NCBI RefSeq assembly: GCF_018283645.1
Contig: NZ_JAGSXH010000043.1
Location: forward strand, 1-46,861
DNA length: 46,861 bases
Direction of reading: 5' to 3'
DNA from: Actinocrinis puniceicyclus
GTDB lineage: Bacteria; Actinomycetota; Actinomycetes; Streptomycetales; Catenulisporaceae
Each line of letters opens with the position of its first letter. Position 1 is the first letter of the stretch. Of the stretch, positions 4,470 to 19,368 are shown piece after piece. The position numbers were made by a program, and so were the translations under genes. The notes below the pieces were generated by a model. It saw only the letters and a list, made by a program, of their open reading frames with translations, had not been told where the DNA came from and did not search any database.

Positions 4470-5662
4470 CGCGGACCCCGGCCCGACCAGGTCCAGGCGT
4501 ATCCCTCGTCCTCACTCGCGATGCCGCCCTCGCCCAGTTCCAGCGGCTTGAAGGTGTCGACCATCACCGCCAGTTCGTCGAAGAACTCCACGCCGATGCT
4601 GCGCTCGTACGCGCCCGGCTGCGGCCCGTGCGCGTGCCCGCCGGGATGCAGCGAGATCGAGCCCTGACCGATGCCGGAGCCCTTGCGCGCCTCGTAGTTC
4701 CCGCCGCAGTAGAACATCACCTCGTCCGAGTCCACGTTCGAGTGGTAGTAGGGCACCGGGATGGACAGCGGGTGGTAGTCCACCTTGCGCGGCACGAAGT
4801 TGCACACCACGAAGTCGGCGCCCTCGAAGACCTGGTGCGCGGGCGGGGGCTGGTGGATCCGGCCGGTGATCGGCTCGAAGTCCGCCACGTTGAACGTGTA
4901 CGGGTACAGGCAACCGTCCCAGCCGACCACGTCGAACGGGTGGTGCGGGTACACGTATCGCGTGCCGCTGATTCCCTGCGCGGTGCGGTGCTTGACCAGG
5001 ACCGGCACGTCTTCGGCCTCGGTCGTCAGGATCTCCTGCGGGCCCCGCAGATCGCGCTCGCAGTAGGGCGCGTGTTCGAGCAGTTGCCCGAACTTCGACA
5101 GGTAGCGGCGGGCCGGCGTGATGTGGCTGTTGGCCTCGATCACGTATGCGCGCAGCGGCTCGCCTTCCGCCGGGACCCAGCGATGCGTGGTCGCGCGCGG
5201 CAGGATCACGTAGTCGCCCTGCCGGACCGGAAGCGCGCCGAACACCGTCTCGACCGCGCCCGAGCCGGATTCGACGTACACGCACTCGTCGCCGATCGCG
5301 TTGCGGTAGAGCGGCGAGGTTTCCCCGGCGACAGCGTACGAGATGCGCACGTCGGCGTTGCCGAGCACCAGCCGGCGGCCGGTCACCACGTCCGCGGTCT
5401 TCCACTCCTGGCCCTCGGCGAGCGCGTGCAGCTTCAGGTGCCGGGGCTTGAGCGGGTGGTTCGCCGTCAGGGTCTGGTCGGGTAGCTCCCACGGCGAGGC
5501 GTCGACGATCGCCGAGGGTATGTGGCGGTGGTAGAGCAGGGACGAGTCGGAGGAGAAGCCCTCCTCTCCCATCAGTTCCTCGTAGTACAGGCCGCCGTCC
5601 TCGCGCCGGTGCTGCGTGTGACGCTTGGGCGGTATGTCGCCGACGGAGCGGTAATAAGCCAT
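4466..5662 (-). CDS. hmgA: homogentisate 1,2-dioxygenase
   Basis: Opens the ring of homogentisate with O2 to give maleylacetoacetate, using Fe(II). The 398-residue protein begins MAYYRSVGDIPPKRHTQHR, the usual bacterial N-terminus. The ATG at 5662 follows GAGGAGG at a good distance. The C-terminal cupin has the expected iron-site context: PVPYYHSNVDSDEVMFY (His and Glu ligands) and LHPGGHAHGPQPG (second His). It lies 32 bases after hpd and is coupled by a GTGA overlap to the following gene, so the cluster is one operon. Confidence 0.96.
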   Translation of the reverse strand: MAYYRSVGDIPPKRHTQHRREDGGLYYEELMGEEGFSSDSSLLYHRHIPSAIVDASPWELPDQTLTANHPLKPRHLKLHALAEGQEWKTADVVTGRRLVLGNADVRISYAVAGETSPLYRNAIGDECVYVESGSGAVETVFGALPVRQGDYVILPRATTHRWVPAEGEPLRAYVIEANSHITPARRYLSKFGQLLEHAPYCERDLRGPQEILTTEAEDVPVLVKHRTAQGISGTRYVYPHHPFDVVGWDGCLYPYTFNVADFEPITGRIHQPPPAHQVFEGADFVVCNFVPRKVDYHPLSIPVPYYHSNVDSDEVMFYCGGNYEARKGSGIGQGSISLHPGGHAHGPQPGAYERSIGVEFFDELAVMVDTFKPLELGEGGIASEDEGYAWTWSGRGPR

Positions 5663-5694: not shown

Positions 5695-7559
<1,865 letters not shown>

Positions 7560-9271: not shown

Positions 9272-9367
9272 GGGCGATGGTCTCCTGATCGGGTTCGGCG
9301 GGCTCGACGGGTGAGGGCTGCGGCCGGGATTCCCGCTGCTGTGGAGTGGGCAGGTGAACGCGGCGTG

Positions 9368-9406
9368 CCGAAGCCGAAGCCGAAGCCGAAGCCGAAGCCG
9401 AAGCCG
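9368..9406. repeat. (ccgaag)6 tandem hexamer
   Basis: Six perfect ccgaag copies plus a partial one lie upstream of galM. They are related to the cttccgg array at 11786-11860, whose reverse complement is ccggaag. Both arrays are in spacers next to minus-strand genes. I find no coding or structural role beyond possible slippage. Confidence 0.85.
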
Positions 9407-10809: not shown

Positions 10810-11119
10810 CGCGCGATCCTAGCGTCCCGCGCTGGAAATCCGTCGCATGACTCTGCTCGACCTGGCTGCGCACGTCCGGTCATCCGCGCCCGGCTGGCAA
10901 GGCGCCGGAACACCCTCGCGGTGCTCAATCAACGCAGTGGGTCGTCTGTGGGCGTTTCGGCAACGCGGCAAGGCGGGATGCGGGGGCCGATTTTCACGGC
11001 GGACTTCCGGCGCGGGACACCAGTGCCTCGGCAGGATCGGGGAATCCCACCAGCGGCGAATAGGGCACTGGGCCTTTTGGCAAGCAGCGCCGGACAGGGC
11101 CGCGGCGCCGCGCCGGCCG
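10810..11119. other. intergenic stretch without a recognisable gene
   Basis: This is the spacer between the lipoprotein start and the end of the lacI remnant. Open frames here have no ribosome site and no resemblance to known proteins. I see no strong hairpin or repeat. It must hold the lipoprotein promoter, but no convincing -10/-35 pair stands out. Confidence 0.5.
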
Positions 11120-11750
11120 TCAGGCGGACTGCCGCCGCACCAGCACCGGATCGAAGATCACCGAGGTCACCGGCCGCCGCGGATCGTCGATCTGGTCGAG
11201 CAGGATGCGGGTCATCCGCGCGGCCATGTCCTCGAACGGCTGGCGGATCGTGGCCAGCGTCGGGCGGCAGGCCGTGGCCGCGCGGCTGTCGTCGAACCCG
11301 ATGACCGCCACGTCCTCGGGCACCCGCCGGCCGCGTTCGCGCAGGGCCAGCATGGCGCCCTGCGCCATCACGTCGTCGGCGACGAAGACGGCGTCCAGAT
11401 CCGGGTGCTGCGTCAGCAGCCGCTCCATCGCCTTCTCGCCGCTGCCGAGCGTGAAGTTGCCTTCCTCGCTCGGGGACGTAGCCGTGGCCGTGGCCGTGGC
11501 GCACCATCGCCTCGCGGAATCCGCTCAGCCGGTCCTGCGCCGCGGCGACGTCGAGCGGCCCGGTGATCGTCGCTGCGCTGGTGCAGCCGCGCGCGAGCAG
11601 GTGTCCGGCAGCCAGCGCCGCGCCGTCGCGGTGGGCCAGGTCGACGTAGCTGATCGGCAGCATGCGCGCGGGCCGGGCGAAGAGCACCGCGCTGAGGCCG
11701 GCCCGCACCAGCAGTTCCGGGAGCGGGTCGTGCAGCCCAAGCCCAGTCAT
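11120..11750 (-). pseudogene. truncated, frameshifted LacI-family regulator
   Basis: A remnant of a sugar-responsive LacI/GalR repressor in two frames. The upstream frame (about 11750-11475) gives DPLPELLVRAGLSAVLF, PISYVDLAHRDGAALAAGHL and TITGPLDVAAAQDRLSGFRE. The downstream frame (about 11470-11120) gives GNFTLGSGEKAMERLL, DAVFVADDVMAQGAMLALRE and VAVIGFDDSRAA. A one-base phase change falls around 11465-11480. The HTH headpiece and the first half of the ligand domain (about 120-150 residues) are absent. In their place is the cttccgg repeat. It cannot encode a DNA-binding protein. The frameshift alone could be a sequencing error, but the missing head could not. Confidence 0.85.
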
Positions 11751-11785
11751 CCGGTGGACGCGGCGAATGCACCGCACCGCGCACG

Positions 11786-11860
11786 CTTCCGGCATTCGGC
11801 TTCCGGCTTCCGGCTTCCGGCTTCCGGCTTCGGCTTCCGGCTTCGGCTTCCGGCTTCCGG
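11786..11860. repeat. cttccgg heptamer array
   Basis: About eleven units of cttccgg (some cttcgg or cattcgg) stand where the 5' half of the lacI remnant should be. The region from here to 12026 has no other gene. The repeat boundary coincides with the truncation point to within about 40 bases, suggesting that repeat expansion or repeat-mediated deletion removed the HTH-coding part. Confidence 0.85.
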
Positions 11861-12026: not shown

Positions 12027-12758
12027 GTGGCGCTGGATCCACCGATGGAAGTCGTGCAGCTGCTCCAGTTCATCGGAGTCGACTGGCCGATGATCAACGA
12101 GGACACCGTGCGCGAGGTCGCCGGGTACGTCCAGGAGTTCGCGGACAACATCCGGCAGGCCCATCAGGACGCGACCGACACGATCCAGAAGATGGGCTCG
12201 GCGTATCAGGGCGCTTCGTACGATCGGCTGGTCGAGCGCTGGGCGCAGATGTCTTCGTCGCACATGACCGAGCTGGTCGACGGCTGCAAGGTCGTGGTCG
12301 AGGCGCTGCACGCCGCGGCCGACTTCATCGTGGCGCAGAAGGGTGTCGCGATCGCGGAACTGGTCGTGCTGGCCGCCTCGTTCATCGCCGACCAGGCCGC
12401 CGCGGTGGCCACCTTCGGCCTGGCCGAGGCGGCGCTGGCGGCGATCGAACTGGCCGCGCGCAAGGCGATCGAGTTTCTGGAGCAGCAGCTGGAGCAGTAC
12501 ATCCTCAGCCAGGTCATCGAGCTCGGATTCAAGGCCCTGCAACCGATCATCCAGCGCGCGCTGGACGGATTCGTCTTCCAGGCCGCGTCCGCCGCGCTCG
12601 GCGTGCCGTCCGGCGCGGGAGGCGCGGTAGGCCAGGGCTTCCAAGTGGTCGCGGACGAACTGCGCTCCCACGCCCAGGTCCTGCACTCCCACGCCGACAC
12701 CGTCGCCTCGCACGCGCAGGTCCTCACCGGCAAGCTGACGGGGGTGAGCTTCGCTTGA
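12027..12758 (+). CDS. ESX/WXG100-like helical partner of the Rhs toxin
   Basis: A 243-residue, almost entirely helical, Ala-rich protein. The opening GVDWPMINEDTVREVAGYVQ resembles the WXG100/CpnT-type N-terminal domain, carrying a W near the start of a long helical hairpin. A coiled region and a C-terminal 'SHAQVLHSHADTVASHAQV' heptad-like stretch follow. I chose the GTG at 12027 because GGGAGG sits eight bases before it; an in-frame ATG at 12003 lacks one. Its stop overlaps the TTG start of rhs, so the two are co-translated. The inferred role is a type VII-like secretion adaptor or chaperone for the toxin. No T7SS machinery genes are in the window. Confidence 0.78.
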   Translation: MALDPPMEVVQLLQFIGVDWPMINEDTVREVAGYVQEFADNIRQAHQDATDTIQKMGSAYQGASYDRLVERWAQMSSSHMTELVDGCKVVVEALHAAADFIVAQKGVAIAELVVLAASFIADQAAAVATFGLAEAALAAIELAARKAIEFLEQQLEQYILSQVIELGFKALQPIIQRALDGFVFQAASAALGVPSGAGGAVGQGFQVVADELRSHAQVLHSHADTVASHAQVLTGKLTGVSFA

Positions 12759-15700
12759 GCGGCGGCATAGCGCGGGCGCTGGAACAAGGCGTCGAGAACG
12801 ACCTGCGTCCCGCGCTACAGGACGCGGGAAAGGCACTGGAGAACGCGGTCCGCTCTGTGGCCCACGGCGCCGAGGGCGTCGCCGAGCGCACCGAGGCGAC
12901 CGAGTCGAAGGTACTCGGGAAGATCACCTCGATCGGCGGCAAGGACACCGAAGGCGCGCTGGGCGGCGCGGAACGCGACGCCGGGAAACTGGGCTCCGAC
13001 GCATCCGGCGCGGCCCGCGGCGGTGAGGGGCCGACGCTCGGCCACGGCGAAGGCCAGGGCGGCGGTCCCAAGGAGAGCGAAGGTAACCACGACGCGCACA
13101 CCGAGGGCGACCCGGTGGACGTGGTCACCGGCGCGATGGTCAGCTCCGTGACCGACGTGCACCTGGCCGGGCTGCTGCCGCTGGTGCTGCGCCGCGCCTA
13201 CAGCTCGGCCTTCCGCGGCGGCCGGCGCTTCGGCCCCGGCTGGTCGTCCACGCTCGATCAGCGCATTGAGATCGACGGCGACGGCATCCACTACGCGGGC
13301 GACGACGCGCAGATCCTGCACTACCCGCAGCCGGCCGGCGCGCACGACGCGGTCCTGCCGGTCGGCGGCGCGCGCTGGCCGCTGACCTGGGACCGGGACA
13401 GCGACACGATCCGCATCACCGACCCGCGCACAGGCTGGACCCGGCATTTCACCGCGCTCGGCGCGACCCGCGCGGGACGAACCGAGATCCGCCCGATCAC
13501 CGCGCTGTCCGACCGCAACGGCCATCGCGTGACATACGTCTGCGACGACGAGGGCGTACCGGTCGAAGTGCAGCACTCCGGCGGCTACCGCATCGCGGTG
13601 GACACCGGCTACACGGCCGGCGTCTTCCGCGTCGAGGGGCTGCGGCTGCTCGACGGCAGCGAGGGCGGCCAGGGCGCGACCCTTGTGGCGTACCAGTACG
13701 ATCCGCGCGGGCGGCTGGCCGGGGTGGTCAACTCCTCCGGCCTTCCATTCGTATACGAATACGACGACAGGGACCTGATCACCGCCGCGATCGACCGCAC
13801 CGGTTCGCGTTACACCTACGAGTACGACGACACCGGGCGGGTCGTGCGCGGCACCGGCGACGGAGGGTACCTGTCCGCGCGCTTCGAATACGACACCGAG
13901 CGGCGGATCACCAGGGCTTTCAACAGCCTGGGCCACGAGACGCAGTACCACTACGACGCGCACGGACACCTCACCAGGACCGTCGACGCCCTCGGCAACG
14001 CGACGGTGACCGAGTACGACCGCTTCGGACGGCTGGTAGCGGTCACGGACCCGCTGGGCAACACCACGCGCTACGTGCTCAACGAGAACGGCGACCCGCT
14101 GCGCGTCGAGCAGCCGGACGGCGGCGTGGTGTCAGCTTCCTACAACGCGTTGGGCCTGCTGGCCGCGCTGACCGGCGCGGCGGGGACCGCGTGGCGCTAC
14201 GCCCACGACGAGCGCGGCAACCTGCTGACGGTCACCGATCCGCTCGGGGCGGCCACCGCGTACACCTACGACGAGCGCGGCCGGCTGACCTCGGTCACCG
14301 ATCCGGCCGGCAACACCACGACCGTCGCGACAGACGCGGCCGGCCTGCAACTCGGCTTCACCGATCCGCTGGGGAACGCCAGCCGACTGGAGCGCGACGC
14401 CTTCGGGCGCGTCGTGGCGGTCACCGACCCGCTGGGCAACACCACGCGGCTGGGGTACCGCGTCGAGGGCGAGGCGCTGTGGCGGGTGCTGCCGGACGGC
14501 ACGCGCGAGGAGTGGGAGTACGACGGCGAGGGGAACCAGACCCTGCACCGCAACCCGGCCGGGCTGGTGACCCGGTACGAGTACGGCCCGTTCTCGTTGC
14601 GGGCGCGGGAGATCCGCCCCGGCGGCGCCGAGTACGCCTTCGCCTACAACACCGAGCGCGACCTGGTGGCGGTGACCAATCCGGCGGCCGCGCTCTGGCG
14701 GTACGAGTACGACGCGGCCGGGCGCATCGTGGCCGAGACCGACTTCAACGGCCGCACCACGACGCGCGGCTTCGACGCGGCCGGGCGGCTGGTCGAGCGG
14801 GTGAACGGCGCGGGCCAGCGCGCCACGATGCTGCGTGACGCCGCGGGCCGGGTCACCCGGCGGGACCTGAGTGACGGCGCCGGGACCGTGTACGAGTACG
14901 ACCCGGAAGGTCGGCTGCTGCGCGCGCGGTCCGGCGATTCAGTGCTCGAATACGGGTATGACGCGGCCGGGCGGCTCGTGTCGGAGAGCGCGGACGGGCG
15001 GCCGGTCGCGAGCCGTTACGACGCGGCGGGCCGCCGGGTCGAGCGCGTCACGCCCTCGGGCCTGGCCTCGCACTGGTCCTTCGACGGCAACGGCAACCCG
15101 TTGAGCATGGCCAACGCCGCCGGCGCGTTGTCGTTCCAGTACGACGCGGTGGGCCAGGAGACCACCCGGTTCCTCGGCGCAGGTGCCGCGCTCACCCAGG
15201 CGTTCGATCCGGCCTACCGCCTCGCGTCACAGGGCGTCTGGGTCTACGACGCGGCCGCGGCGCAGGTCGCGGCGCCGGAGGGCGGGGCCGGCGGCTACCG
15301 GCCGCTTGAGCAGCGCACTTATACGTATCGCCCGGATGGTTATCCGGTCGCGGTCACGGACACGTTGCGCGGCGATCGCGCCTACACGTTGGACCCCGAG
15401 GGCCGGATCACGGCGGTCAGCGGCGACGCCTGGCATGAGCAGTACAGCTATGACCGCGCCGGGAACCTCGCCGCGGCCGCCTGGCCCGGCGCCGGGGATG
15501 ACGCGCGGGACGCACAGGGTGAGCGAGAATATCAGGGCACGATCGTGCGGCGCGCCGGGCGGGTCGGCTACGAGTACGACGCTCAGGGCCGTGTGGTGCG
15601 CATGGTCAGGCGCACCCTCTCCGGCCAGAGCCGGCAGTGGACGTATACGTGGGACGCGGACGACCGGCTGACCCGGGTCACCACGCCCGACGGCTCGGTA

Positions 15701-16630
15701 TGGCAGTACACATACGATCCGCTGGGGCGGCGGGTCGCGAAACGGCGGCTGGCCGCGGACGGCGCGGCGGCCGAACTGATCAGCTTCGCGTGGGACGGGC
15801 GCCATCTGGCGGAGCAGACCCGGAAGTCGGCGGACGGGACCGTCGAGACGCTCACGTGGGACTGGGAACCGGGCGGTGATCGGGTCGCCGCGCAGACGCG
15901 CGCCGTCACCCGCCCGGCCGGCAGCGCGCTGCACGCGCCGCAGGAGGAGATCGACCGGCGCTTCTACGCGATCGTCGCGGACGCGGTCGGCACCCCCACC
16001 GAACTGGTCGCGCCGGACGGACGGATCGCCTGGCGCGCGCAGCACACGGTGTGGGGGCGCCCGGCGGGCACCGACCCCGAGACGACCGGGTGCCCGCTGG
16101 GTTTCCCCGGCCAGTACCGGGACGAGGAAACCGGCCTGCACTACAACTACCTGCGCTACTACGACCCGGAGACCGCGCGGTATCTGAGCCCTGACCCGCT
16201 CGGCCTGTTCCCCTCGCCGGACGACTACGCGTACGTGGCGAACCCGCTGCTGTGGTTCGACCCGCTGGGACTGGCCCCGCACCACGCGCACATCACGGTC
16301 TACGACCCGGCCGGCAACGTCCGCTACCACTACGGCCTGGTCAGCGGGCACACCGTGCCGGAGGAGGCCGCGCTGGGCTTCCCGAACGCGATGATGGCCA
16401 CCCACACCGAGAACCGGTCGATGCGGATGCACGGCGGCAGCCCGACCGTGCCGATCCCGGGCGATCCGTACGCGAATTCGCATCCCGTCCAGGCCGGCGA
16501 CCACATCGTGATCGACGGCGAGAAGCCGCCGTGCCCGCAGTGCAAGGGCGCGATGAACCGCGCGATGAACGAACTGGGCGTGAACGTGACGTACAACTGG
16601 GGCGGCAACACGTGGCACGCGACCGGGTGA
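12755..16630 (+). CDS. Rhs/YD-repeat polymorphic toxin with C-terminal deaminase domain
   Basis: A 1291-residue contact-dependent toxin. Residues 1-115 are a helical, Gly-rich N-terminus. GDPVDVVTGAMV (about 118) starts the DUF6531 block. About 200-1120 are YD repeats (YDERGRLTSVTDP and many variants). The hyperconserved Rhs core ends around 1123-1175 with HYNYLRYYDPETARYLSPDP and the release motif DPLGL. The tip, residues 1176-1291, has the zinc-deaminase signature: H-T-E (His1217, Glu1219) and PCPQC (Cys1260, Cys1263). Such tips deaminate cytidine in DNA, RNA or nucleotides. The spacing and the short tip recall the Pput_2613/SsdA-like group, but that subfamily is a guess. The TTG start overlaps the upstream stop (TTGA). 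Confidence 0.93.
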   Translation: MSGGIARALEQGVENDLRPALQDAGKALENAVRSVAHGAEGVAERTEATESKVLGKITSIGGKDTEGALGGAERDAGKLGSDASGAARGGEGPTLGHGEGQGGGPKESEGNHDAHTEGDPVDVVTGAMVSSVTDVHLAGLLPLVLRRAYSSAFRGGRRFGPGWSSTLDQRIEIDGDGIHYAGDDAQILHYPQPAGAHDAVLPVGGARWPLTWDRDSDTIRITDPRTGWTRHFTALGATRAGRTEIRPITALSDRNGHRVTYVCDDEGVPVEVQHSGGYRIAVDTGYTAGVFRVEGLRLLDGSEGGQGATLVAYQYDPRGRLAGVVNSSGLPFVYEYDDRDLITAAIDRTGSRYTYEYDDTGRVVRGTGDGGYLSARFEYDTERRITRAFNSLGHETQYHYDAHGHLTRTVDALGNATVTEYDRFGRLVAVTDPLGNTTRYVLNENGDPLRVEQPDGGVVSASYNALGLLAALTGAAGTAWRYAHDERGNLLTVTDPLGAATAYTYDERGRLTSVTDPAGNTTTVATDAAGLQLGFTDPLGNASRLERDAFGRVVAVTDPLGNTTRLGYRVEGEALWRVLPDGTREEWEYDGEGNQTLHRNPAGLVTRYEYGPFSLRAREIRPGGAEYAFAYNTERDLVAVTNPAAALWRYEYDAAGRIVAETDFNGRTTTRGFDAAGRLVERVNGAGQRATMLRDAAGRVTRRDLSDGAGTVYEYDPEGRLLRARSGDSVLEYGYDAAGRLVSESADGRPVASRYDAAGRRVERVTPSGLASHWSFDGNGNPLSMANAAGALSFQYDAVGQETTRFLGAGAALTQAFDPAYRLASQGVWVYDAAAAQVAAPEGGAGGYRPLEQRTYTYRPDGYPVAVTDTLRGDRAYTLDPEGRITAVSGDAWHEQYSYDRAGNLAAAAWPGAGDDARDAQGEREYQGTIVRRAGRVGYEYDAQGRVVRMVRRTLSGQSRQWTYTWDADDRLTRVTTPDGSVWQYTYDPLGRRVAKRRLAADGAAAELISFAWDGRHLAEQTRKSADGTVETLTWDWEPGGDRVAAQTRAVTRPAGSALHAPQEEIDRRFYAIVADAVGTPTELVAPDGRIAWRAQHTVWGRPAGTDPETTGCPLGFPGQYRDEETGLHYNYLRYYDPETARYLSPDPLGLFPSPDDYAYVANPLLWFDPLGLAPHHAHITVYDPAGNVRYHYGLVSGHTVPEEAALGFPNAMMATHTENRSMRMHGGSPTVPIPGDPYANSHPVQAGDHIVIDGEKPPCPQCKGAMNRAMNELGVNVTYNWGGNTWHATG

Positions 16631-16672
16631 CGGGTCGCGCGCCGGACGGCCGGGCGAAGGGATAATCGCGGT

Positions 16673-17083
16673 ATGCCTTCGCCTGACTTCGCTTCCGTCG
16701 CGCTGGTGACCGTCGAGGAGAACGTCGACGCCTTCACGGTCGGATTGGCCGCGGACCCCTCCGGCGCCGGAGCCTTCCTCATCCTGCAGTGCGCGCTGAC
16801 AACGCCGACGGATCAGGACGCGGCGACCGGGATGGACACGTACTGCCTGATGGACGAGCAGGGCGCGGTGCATTACGGCGGAGTCGAGCGCGCCGAGTTG
16901 ACCGCCGGCACGCTGCGGCTGCGGTTCGACGCGGACGCGGCGCAGGAGCTGGGCGTCACGGACCCGCAGCGCCGGCTGAGCCTGAGCGTCCCGGCCGCGG
17001 ACACCGAGCGCCTGGCCGCCGGACTTCGCAGGGTTCTGACCTATGGCGCCCCGGACCGGCAGCCGGAGCTGGCCGGGATCTGA
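16673..17083 (+). CDS. Imm10-like immunity protein
   Basis: A 136-residue acidic protein 42 bases after the toxin. It resembles the Imm10 family of polymorphic-toxin immunity proteins: an opening ENVDAFTVGLAADPSG, a central LILQCALT, the signature GMDTYCLMDEQGAVHYGG, then alternating strands and a C-terminal helix LAAGLRRVLTYG. Imm10 members are often found beside deaminase tips, which supports both assignments. It should bind and block the deaminase domain in the cytosol. The ATG start has only a weak AAGGG ahead, consistent with read-through from rhs. The family call is from pattern memory. Confidence 0.8.
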   Translation: MPSPDFASVALVTVEENVDAFTVGLAADPSGAGAFLILQCALTTPTDQDAATGMDTYCLMDEQGAVHYGGVERAELTAGTLRLRFDADAAQELGVTDPQRRLSLSVPAADTERLAAGLRRVLTYGAPDRQPELAGI

Positions 17084-17120: not shown

Positions 17121-18188
17121 TCACGAGACGCGGCGGCGGGCGGCGCCCTTGGCCGCGGCCTTCTTCGCCGGAGCCTTCTGCACCGCGTTCGTGCCGGCCG
17201 CGCCGGTCTGCGTCGTCGAGGTCTTCTTCGCCGCGCTCTTCTTGGCGGGCGCGGTGCGCGCGGCCGTCTTCTTGGCCGCGCCCTTGTTCGCCGGCGCCTT
17301 CTTCGCCGCGCCAGGAGCGGCGCCCCCGCTCTCGCCCTGGCTGCCCTCGCCCTCGCCGCCGGCCGCGGCCCGCGCGGCCGGCTCGGCACTCTCGTCGGCG
17401 CCGGCCGGGCGGCCGCCGCGCGCCGCCTTCACGCTGCGCTCCAGCACCGCCATCAGGTCGATCACGTTGTCGCCGGCCGCGGCGCGCGGCGCCTCGTGCG
17501 GGACGGGCGCACCTTCGAGCTTCGCCTCAACCAGGTCGTGCAACGCCACCTGGTAGTCGTCGCGCAGCTGCCCGGCCAGCTCGGGAAAGTCCGTGGACAG
17601 CGTCTGGATCAGCGACTGCGCCATGGCCAGCTCCTGCGGGCGCACCCCGGCCTCCTGCGGCGCGATCCCCTCGGCCGTGCGCACCTCGTCCGGCCAGACC
17701 ATCAGCTGGAGCACCAGGACGTCGTCGTGTACGCGCAACACCGCCGGGGACTCCCGGGTCGACAGCGTGATCTTGGTGACCGCGACCTGCCCGCTCTCCC
17801 GCATCGCGTCGCGCAGCAGCGCGTACGGCTTGGCCCCGGCCTTCTCCGGCGCGACGTAGTAAGGCTTGGCGAAGTACACCGGGTCGATCTGCCGCTCATC
17901 GACGAAGGCGAGCACGTCGATGGTCTTCTTCGTCGGCACGGGCAGCGCCGACAGGTCCTCGTCGGTGAGCACGACCGTGTGCTCGTCGTCCGCGTCGAAA
18001 CCCCTGGCGATCTCCCGGTACGGAACCTCCCGGTCCTCCAGCTCGCACCAGCGCTTCATGCGCACCCGCCCGCCGTCCGGCGCGTGAACCTGATGCAGCG
18101 AGACGTTGTGCTCCTCGACCGCGGGCGCTATCGACACCGGGACCGTGACCAGCCCGAAGCTGATCGCGCCCTTCCACGAACTCCTCAT
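17121..18188 (-). CDS. ku: Ku DNA end-binding protein (NHEJ)
   Basis: Homodimeric ring protein that loads on double-strand DNA ends and recruits LigD-type enzymes. I chose the ATG at 18188, with GGAGGAGAGG upstream, giving 355 residues starting MRSSWKGAISFGLVTVPVSI, the classic bacterial Ku N-terminus. The core spans about residues 1-255 (KRWCELEDREVPYREI, LLRDAMRESGQVAVTKITL). The tail, from about 280, is an Ala/Lys stretch rich in AAKK and APAKK like eukaryotic H1. Such extended tails are known in actinomycete Ku and aid DNA binding. It is divergent from a LigD polymerase-domain gene. Confidence 0.96.
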   Translation of the reverse strand: MRSSWKGAISFGLVTVPVSIAPAVEEHNVSLHQVHAPDGGRVRMKRWCELEDREVPYREIARGFDADDEHTVVLTDEDLSALPVPTKKTIDVLAFVDERQIDPVYFAKPYYVAPEKAGAKPYALLRDAMRESGQVAVTKITLSTRESPAVLRVHDDVLVLQLMVWPDEVRTAEGIAPQEAGVRPQELAMAQSLIQTLSTDFPELAGQLRDDYQVALHDLVEAKLEGAPVPHEAPRAAAGDNVIDLMAVLERSVKAARGGRPAGADESAEPAARAAAGGEGEGSQGESGGAAPGAAKKAPANKGAAKKTAARTAPAKKSAAKKTSTTQTGAAGTNAVQKAPAKKAAAKGAARRRVS

Positions 18189-18237
18189 CCGACGCCGCCT
18201 CTCCTCCGGCACGGCCTCTCACGTTCGAGTCTCGTCC

Positions 18238-18477: not shown

Positions 18478-19368
18478 GTGCCCACGGGCGTGGCGACGAC
18501 GGTAGAAGGACATCGTCTCTCCCTGACCCACCTGGACAAGCCGCTGTGGCCCGACGGGTGGACCAAGGGACAGGCGCTGCACTACTACGCCCGGATCGCG
18601 GACGTCATGCTGCCGCATGTACGCCGCCGGCCGGCCTCCTTCCTGCGCTTTCCCGACGGCGTCGGCGCGCAGACGTTCTATGTGAAGACCCCGCCGCCCG
18701 GCACGCCGAACTGGGTGCCGCGCGCCGACGTGCCCAGCCGCACCGAGGGCACCAAACCGCACGTCACAGTGGACGACGTAGCCTCCCTGATCGCGCTGGG
18801 CAACCTCGGCTGCCTGGAAGTGCACGTACCGCAGTGGACCGCGCCCCATCCCGAACTGCACGACCTGCTCGTGGTCGATCTCGATCCCGGGCCGGGCACG
18901 AGCATCGTGCAGTGCGCCCGGGTCGCCCTCGCGGTGCGCGCGCTGCTCGCCCACGACGGGCTCGCCTGCGCCGTGAAAACCTCCGGTTCGAAGGGCCTGC
19001 ACCTTTACGCGCCGCTGCGCCCCTCGCCCGCGGGCCGGGTCGGCGCCTACGCGCGCTCGCTGGCCAGGGCGCTTTCCGGCGCGCTGCCCGACCGGGTGAC
19101 CGCGACGATGGCGAAGGCGGCACGCACGGGCAAGGTCTTCGTCGACTGGTCGCAGAACAACACCGCCAAGACCACGGTCGCGCCGTACTCGCTGCGGGCC
19201 GGTCCGTTCCCCGCGGTCTCGGCACCGGTCGGCTGGGCGGAGGTCGAGTCCTGCGAGCGACCCGAGGAGCTGGTCTTCACGCCGCAGCAGGTGCTGGACC
19301 GGGTCGAGCGGTACGGCGACCTGCTCGGCGGGCTGCTCGACCCGGTCCTGGCCGGCCCGCTGCCATGA
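18478..19368 (+). CDS. ligD: stand-alone LigD-type NHEJ polymerase domain
   Basis: Primase-polymerase (AEP fold) domain that fills gaps at Ku-bound ends with ribonucleotides. The 296 residues begin with TVEGHRLSLTHLDKPLWPDG. LLVVDLDPGPG holds the catalytic Asp pair (Asp134, Asp136). TSGSKGLHLYAPL and KVFVDWSQNN (third Asp) follow. No nuclease or ligase domain is fused, so ligation would need another gene outside the window, a split arrangement common in actinomycetes. The GTG start at 18478 lacks a strong ribosome site but is the first one consistent with homologous N-termini. It is divergent from ku. Confidence 0.93.
   Translation: MPTGVATTVEGHRLSLTHLDKPLWPDGWTKGQALHYYARIADVMLPHVRRRPASFLRFPDGVGAQTFYVKTPPPGTPNWVPRADVPSRTEGTKPHVTVDDVASLIALGNLGCLEVHVPQWTAPHPELHDLLVVDLDPGPGTSIVQCARVALAVRALLAHDGLACAVKTSGSKGLHLYAPLRPSPAGRVGAYARSLARALSGALPDRVTATMAKAARTGKVFVDWSQNNTAKTTVAPYSLRAGPFPAVSAPVGWAEVESCERPEELVFTPQQVLDRVERYGDLLGGLLDPVLAGPLP

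Follow-up and report, generated by a model that had tools for sequence, protein, structure and literature searches.

An Rhs toxin with a predicted BaDTF3-type DNA deaminase tip, its WXG100-like partner and an Imm10-family immunity gene in the soil actinomycete Actinocrinis puniceicyclus

The window analysed in this study is the whole 46,861-nt stretch of Actinocrinis puniceicyclus contig NZ_JAGSXH010000043.1, and coordinates refer to it unless another locus is named. Three consecutive genes on its forward strand, encoding a WXG100-like partner (12027-12758), an Rhs protein (12755-16630) and an Imm10-family protein (16673-17083), make up a module in which an Rhs toxin with a DNA-deaminase tip is combined with an antidote gene and a secretion partner. 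The open reading frames, their order and the TTGA overlap between the first two, all described in an earlier note on this DNA, were borne out when the reading frames were checked. All three genes are intact, with a third-position G+C of 0.90-0.97.

The first gene (+) starts with a GTG at 12027, just preceded by GGGAGGT, and its stop codon ends at 12758. The 243-aa product passes the Pfam cut-offs for both WXG100_2 (PF25547, E 7e-11) and WXG100 (PF06013, E 1e-9), as its previous labelling as a WXG100-like protein would predict, and its WxG turn reads YQG. Because no YxxxD/E secretion motif was found in the protein, it is described here as a WXG100-like partner and not as a canonical Esx substrate; the motif is likewise absent from residues 1-117 of the Rhs protein. 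The partner belongs to a multi-copy family: the same genome has some ten or more whole or partial copies, and three sister-genus genomes gave seven to nine matches apiece. One paralogue, 45% identical, precedes another Rhs gene in the A. puniceicyclus genome. At most of the inspected loci the start of the next gene overlaps or closely trails the stop of the partner, and in two Streptomyces-group loci (L139 and L144) a partner homologue is fused to the Rhs N-terminus. The family was also observed 5' of short effectors of about 210-350 residues that carry no Rhs repeats (L056, L057, L058, L062 and L064) and returned zero significant Pfam matches; the small genes that come next at these loci may be immunity genes.

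The partner is likely to be a T7SS targeting partner. EccCa/EccCb and EccE are encoded on one contig of the genome (C406) and other EccC-like ATPases elsewhere, all on contigs other than that of the toxin locus. Export of the partner and the Rhs protein by this system is supported, not proven, by the recurrent coupling or fusion and by the T7SS of the genome. A doubtful though serious alternative is that the toxin does not use the T7SS but a different exit from the cell, or that it acts among kin or once cells have lysed, and that the WXG-like gene supplies only a chaperone or plug. The missing YxxxD/E motif in both proteins and the lack of linkage between the T7SS genes and the locus would fit such an account, but the partner passes the cut-offs of two WXG100 families, a T7SS ATPase is present in the genome and the coupled or fused arrangement of partner and effector recurs. 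Delivery by the T7SS is retained as the preferred reading.

The Rhs gene (12755-16630, +) encodes 1291 aa, comprising a DUF6531 domain (E 1e-20), about 18 YD repeats (RHS_repeat, E 3e-92 over 18 stretches), an Rhs-associated core (TIGR03696, E 3e-21) and the deaminase tip. With YD repeats, an Rhs-associated core and a variable tip after that core, the protein has the make-up of an Rhs polymorphic toxin. Its TTG start at 12755 overlaps the TGA of the partner gene, and a ribosome-binding-like site, GGGGGTGAG (12740-12748, +), lies 6 nt 5' of this TTG. A paralogue in the same genome (L024, on contig C21) supports the TTG start: its Rhs ATG, which aligns with residue 1 of the window Rhs, is part of a TGATG overlap with the WXG partner gene of that locus. 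An end-to-end alignment with the start of the L024 protein delimits a helix-prone N-terminal segment of residues 1-117 (12755-13105, +) before DUF6531, for which no Pfam family was found.

Towards the other end, the Rhs core closes with two DPLGL motifs set 22 residues apart (residues 1147-1151 and 1169-1173; 16193-16273, +). Self-cleavage at DPLGL frees the tip of Rhs proteins, and the twin motifs have the expected appearance of an Rhs self-cleavage signature and tip junction. The core is 40-48% identical over about 1200 residues to those of six other WXG-paired Rhs proteins (L024, L054, L059, L060, L061 and L067); this similarity stops at the second DPLGL, and the tips differ beyond it.

The deaminase tip (16274-16627, +) is about 118 residues long and begins at about residue 1174, directly past the DPLGL and a few residues before residue 1176, where the earlier note had closely placed its start. 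Its sole Pfam match, with matches inspected to E 1, is PF14427 (Pput2613-deam), at E 1e-27 and 96.7 bits against a cut-off of 25 (E 2e-25 for the whole protein). The zinc site previously read from the sequence was recovered: H-T-E at residues 1217-1219 (16403-16411, +), comprising a zinc ligand and the catalytic glutamate, is invariant in 12 tips, and PCPQC at residues 1259-1263 (16529-16543, +), with the remaining zinc ligands, aligns with PCxxC in all 12 tips compared. Four BaDTF3 entries in the PDB (9k3e and 9pw0-9pw2) were matched by sequence at E 2e-18 to 8e-17 and in a profile search at E 1e-24 to 7e-23. The alanine that 9pw0-9pw2 show at the position aligned with E1219 would be a catalytic-site mutation.

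A fold predicted from the single tip sequence was set aside (pLDDT 51), and a model was built from three natural sequences, namely the tips of the window, of a Kutzneria locus (L009) and of a viral-collection contig (L043), with a pLDDT of 77.7. The predicted fold is that of a deaminase. Its first-ranked Foldseek match in the PDB was 9k3e_B, "DddB(BadTF3) dsDNA deaminase" (E 1.8e-9, probability 1.00, TM 0.72/0.79), with the second match far behind (E 0.0097) and the APOBEC and DddA chains well below. Profile search and structure prediction alike place the tip in the BaDTF3/DddB deaminase family; no description of this particular toxin was found in the literature searched, although toxins of its kind have been published.

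Several other assignments were considered and rejected. For an SsdA-like tip, no DYW family appeared in Pfam to E 1, and 9c63, a P. syringae T6S toxin structure which we take to be that of SsdA, was matched at a probability of 0.14 and a TM of 0.30. For a DddA-like tip there is distant fold likeness alone (TM about 0.5, E 0.027-0.035). The "SsdA/Pput_2613-like group" to which the tip had been provisionally referred needs to be split, because SsdA is a DYW-like BaDTF2 enzyme and Pput_2613 belongs to BaDTF3 (PMC7901873); the Pput_2613 half of that grouping stands with PF14427 and 9k3e, and the SsdA half falls. A reading of the locus as an anti-phage system was also discarded. PADLOC returned zero matches for all three module proteins and the tip zero matches among phage records. 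In IMG/VR the single tip sequence matched nothing and an alignment query gave one match. A PF14427 match in genome G107 (L011, E 1e-4, under the cut-off) was put down to chance, no PF14427-like ORF being seen at that locus.

A 17-residue insertion, MHGGSPTVPIPGDPYAN (residues 1225-1241; 16427-16477, +), separates the catalytic helix of the tip from the strand that comes next. The spacing from HTE to PCxxC is 39 residues in the window tip and 39-42 in ten other actinomycete tips, compared with 22 in L043, which is without the insertion; the solved BaDTF3 chain is also gapped by 17 residues at this position. The actinomycete tips of this subclade share an insertion of 17-20 residues, the central part of which is conserved around GDP/NDP. 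The insertion is of low confidence in the tip model, and could change the substrate or the sequence context relative to the solved BaDTF3.

The likely substrate can be judged from the relatives. A BaDTF3 member was both toxic and mutagenic in E. coli, producing C-G to T-A changes at 5'-HC, with T the best preceding base and none after G (PMC7901873), and DddB prefers TC over GC (PMC12698189). The assignment of BaDTF3 to dsDNA is taken from a PDB entry name and a paper title. It is unlikely, in our judgement, that the tip is a DNA deaminase acting mainly on single strands in the manner of SsdA, at replication forks and transcription bubbles and not on the duplex. In favour of this reading, SsdA is itself a mutagenic toxin that works on ssDNA, the published in vivo BaDTF3 data are by themselves compatible with either ssDNA or dsDNA, and substrate binding could be altered by the insertion next to the catalytic helix. 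Against it, the name of the closest structure specifies a dsDNA deaminase, and SsdA is of a different family, its likely structure (9c63) being matched at a probability of only 0.14. Toxins of the deaminase superfamily also include RNA editors. That the tip edits RNA and kills via transcripts or tRNA is nevertheless highly improbable, because the C-to-T changes caused by a BaDTF3 member in vivo were in DNA (PMC7901873), and because the relative of known structure goes under the name of a dsDNA deaminase. The earlier note had left ssDNA, dsDNA and RNA side by side; the choice is now less open, with DNA favoured on these data and on the match to 9k3e.

The third gene (16673-17083, +) starts 42 bases past the Rhs stop and encodes a 136-aa protein matching PF15588 at E 3.7e-15. 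This match and its position past a Pput_2613 tip identify it as a member of the Imm10 family, in line with its former description as Imm10-like; like the family matches of the partner and the tip, the score is far better than chance would give. It is the one Imm10 gene in the genome, and no relative was found in the PDB by sequence. Of 11 related actinomycete loci, nine have an Imm10 gene 3' of the tip (L009, L022, L034-L038, L040 and L042), and at the other two (L039 and L041) none was found. Compared with the window, the Kutzneria locus is 68% identical in the tip, 52% in Imm10 and 42% in the Rhs core, and the window tip is 38-52% identical to tips of Streptomyces-group genomes, which belong to its own order. 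The tip and Imm10 have probably moved together between lineages, because the Kutzneria tip is closer than those of the own order while the core is only 42% identical. Two further observations concern these relatives. The reading frame of the Kutzneria Rhs gene is broken a short way ahead of the tip (L009:5815-5860), by a real change or an assembly error, with the tip and Imm10 intact. On the viral-collection contig, the PF14427 tip is followed by two successive weak Imm10-like genes (L043:5494-5904 and 5944-6363).

A LacI/GalR-type regulator remnant (10929-11760, -) lies just 5' of the toxin genes; it consists of the ligand-binding part only, with no DNA-binding domain seen and the frame broken near 11430. 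Short tandem repeats occur at 11785-11860 (GCTTCCG, about 11 copies) and 9367-9406 (GCCGAA, about 6.7 copies). Directly past the deaminase module are genes for end joining, Ku (17121-18212, -) and a LigD primase-polymerase (18478-19368, +). The broken LacI-type gene and the frame break in the Kutzneria Rhs might suggest that the locus has decayed and no longer has a function, but this is very hard to reconcile with three intact genes of such high third-position G+C that have kept their catalytic residues and immunity.

We consider it quite probable that the three genes form one antibacterial module combining T7SS export, release at DPLGL, C-to-U conversion in target DNA and self-protection by Imm10. 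The WXG100-like partner and the helical Rhs N-terminus would together target the effector to the T7SS, and the Rhs repeats would form a shell holding the tip. By analogy with other Rhs proteins, the tip would then be freed by self-cleavage at DPLGL. Acting as a zinc deaminase, it would convert cytosine to uracil in competitor DNA, most likely in dsDNA, with 5'-TC preferred and little activity at 5'-GC, as the relatives lead one to expect. The target cell would die from uracil and its repair, and C-to-T mutations may be left in any survivors. Imm10 would block the tip in the producing strain and its kin.

Deaminase-like tips also recur on sister scaffolds. Seven split WXG+Rhs loci, including that of the window, were compared from four related genomes, L024 and L061 not being independent. 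Beside the PF14427 tip of the window, there are a MafB19 tip at L059 (1262-1738, -; E 1.4e-18), an XOO_2897 tip at L060 (4508-5005; E 1e-14) and an OTT_1508 match at L054 (4830-5303; E 0.004, under the cut-off). The L024 tip (5179-5640) has DAE and PCQEF..NC and no Pfam match; that of L061 (4511-4975) is of the same type, likewise with no Pfam match, and on these motifs (DAE ... PCQEF ... NC) the two may represent an undescribed deaminase group. The tip of L067 is something else. Up to six of the seven loci carry deaminase-like tips, of different families, three of them over the Pfam cut-offs. Among 60 comparison Rhs tips, taken past the closest-matching cores across 395 genomes of the class, none matched any deaminase family at E 0.01 and two (L074 and L080) were deaminase-like by motif. 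Fisher tests, applied post hoc, gave values from 7e-4 (3/7 over the cut-off) to 2e-6 (6/7 by motif against 2/60). The pattern suggests that the WXG+Rhs delivery scaffold often carries DNA/RNA deaminases and, being post hoc, is treated as a lead. More tentatively, it is possible that the split scaffold in this actinomycete family now carries, for the most part, deaminases of unrelated families that act on nucleic acids, a changing set by which related strains would mutate or edit one another's DNA or RNA, the window holding the BaDTF3 version, whose insertion may give it a new substrate context.

The pairing of Pput_2613 with Imm10 (2012) and the role of BaDTF3 as a mutagenic toxin are already known; the conserved insertion of 17-20 residues, the tip and Imm10 shared with Kutzneria and the deaminase-rich sister scaffolds are new. 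The earlier suggestion of an unexplored tool goes too far: this member is undescribed within the literature searched, but DddB has already been applied to footprinting (PMC12698189) and BaDTF3, according to the title of a paper cited in PMC13299692, to mitochondrial editing. A diverged DddB-type deaminase with a natural insertion is a candidate for new contexts in both base editing and footprinting, and the sister tips (MafB19-like, XOO_2897-like and two kinds poorly recognised by Pfam) offer a small deaminase set for a joint assay. The module would also link the actinomycete T7SS to DNA-mutating weapons, and the idea that soil bacteria raise one another's mutation rates is testable.

Among known systems, BaDTF3/DddB, whose tested member is from Taylorella equigenitalis, shares with the window tip the family PF14427, HTE and PCxxC, a fold at TM 0.72-0.79, about 45% identity over some 90 aligned residues (counted from the alignment) and the position as C-terminal tip of a YD-repeat protein. 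The window differs in its 17-residue insertion, its actinomycete host and its WXG100-like partner, immunity being compared by family only. SsdA (BaDTF2) is likewise an antibacterial mutagenic toxin of the deaminase superfamily but of another family, and DddA (BaDTF1, SCP1.201-like) shares the deaminase fold and dsDNA C-to-U activity but is only distantly similar in structure. The polymorphic toxin tables of Zhang et al. (2012, PMC3482391) list the Pput_2613 deaminase with Imm10, the same pairing as here, and list deaminases with T7SS (WXG) export and RHS repeats; these tables are at family level, and neither the window locus nor the split arrangement of partner and Rhs was found in them. The Streptomyces Hint-Rhs proteins (L022 and relatives) have the same tip subclade with the insertion, PF14427 and Imm10, whereas L022 has a longer Rhs, Hint-domain processing in place of DPLGL and no WXG100-like gene annotated directly 5'.
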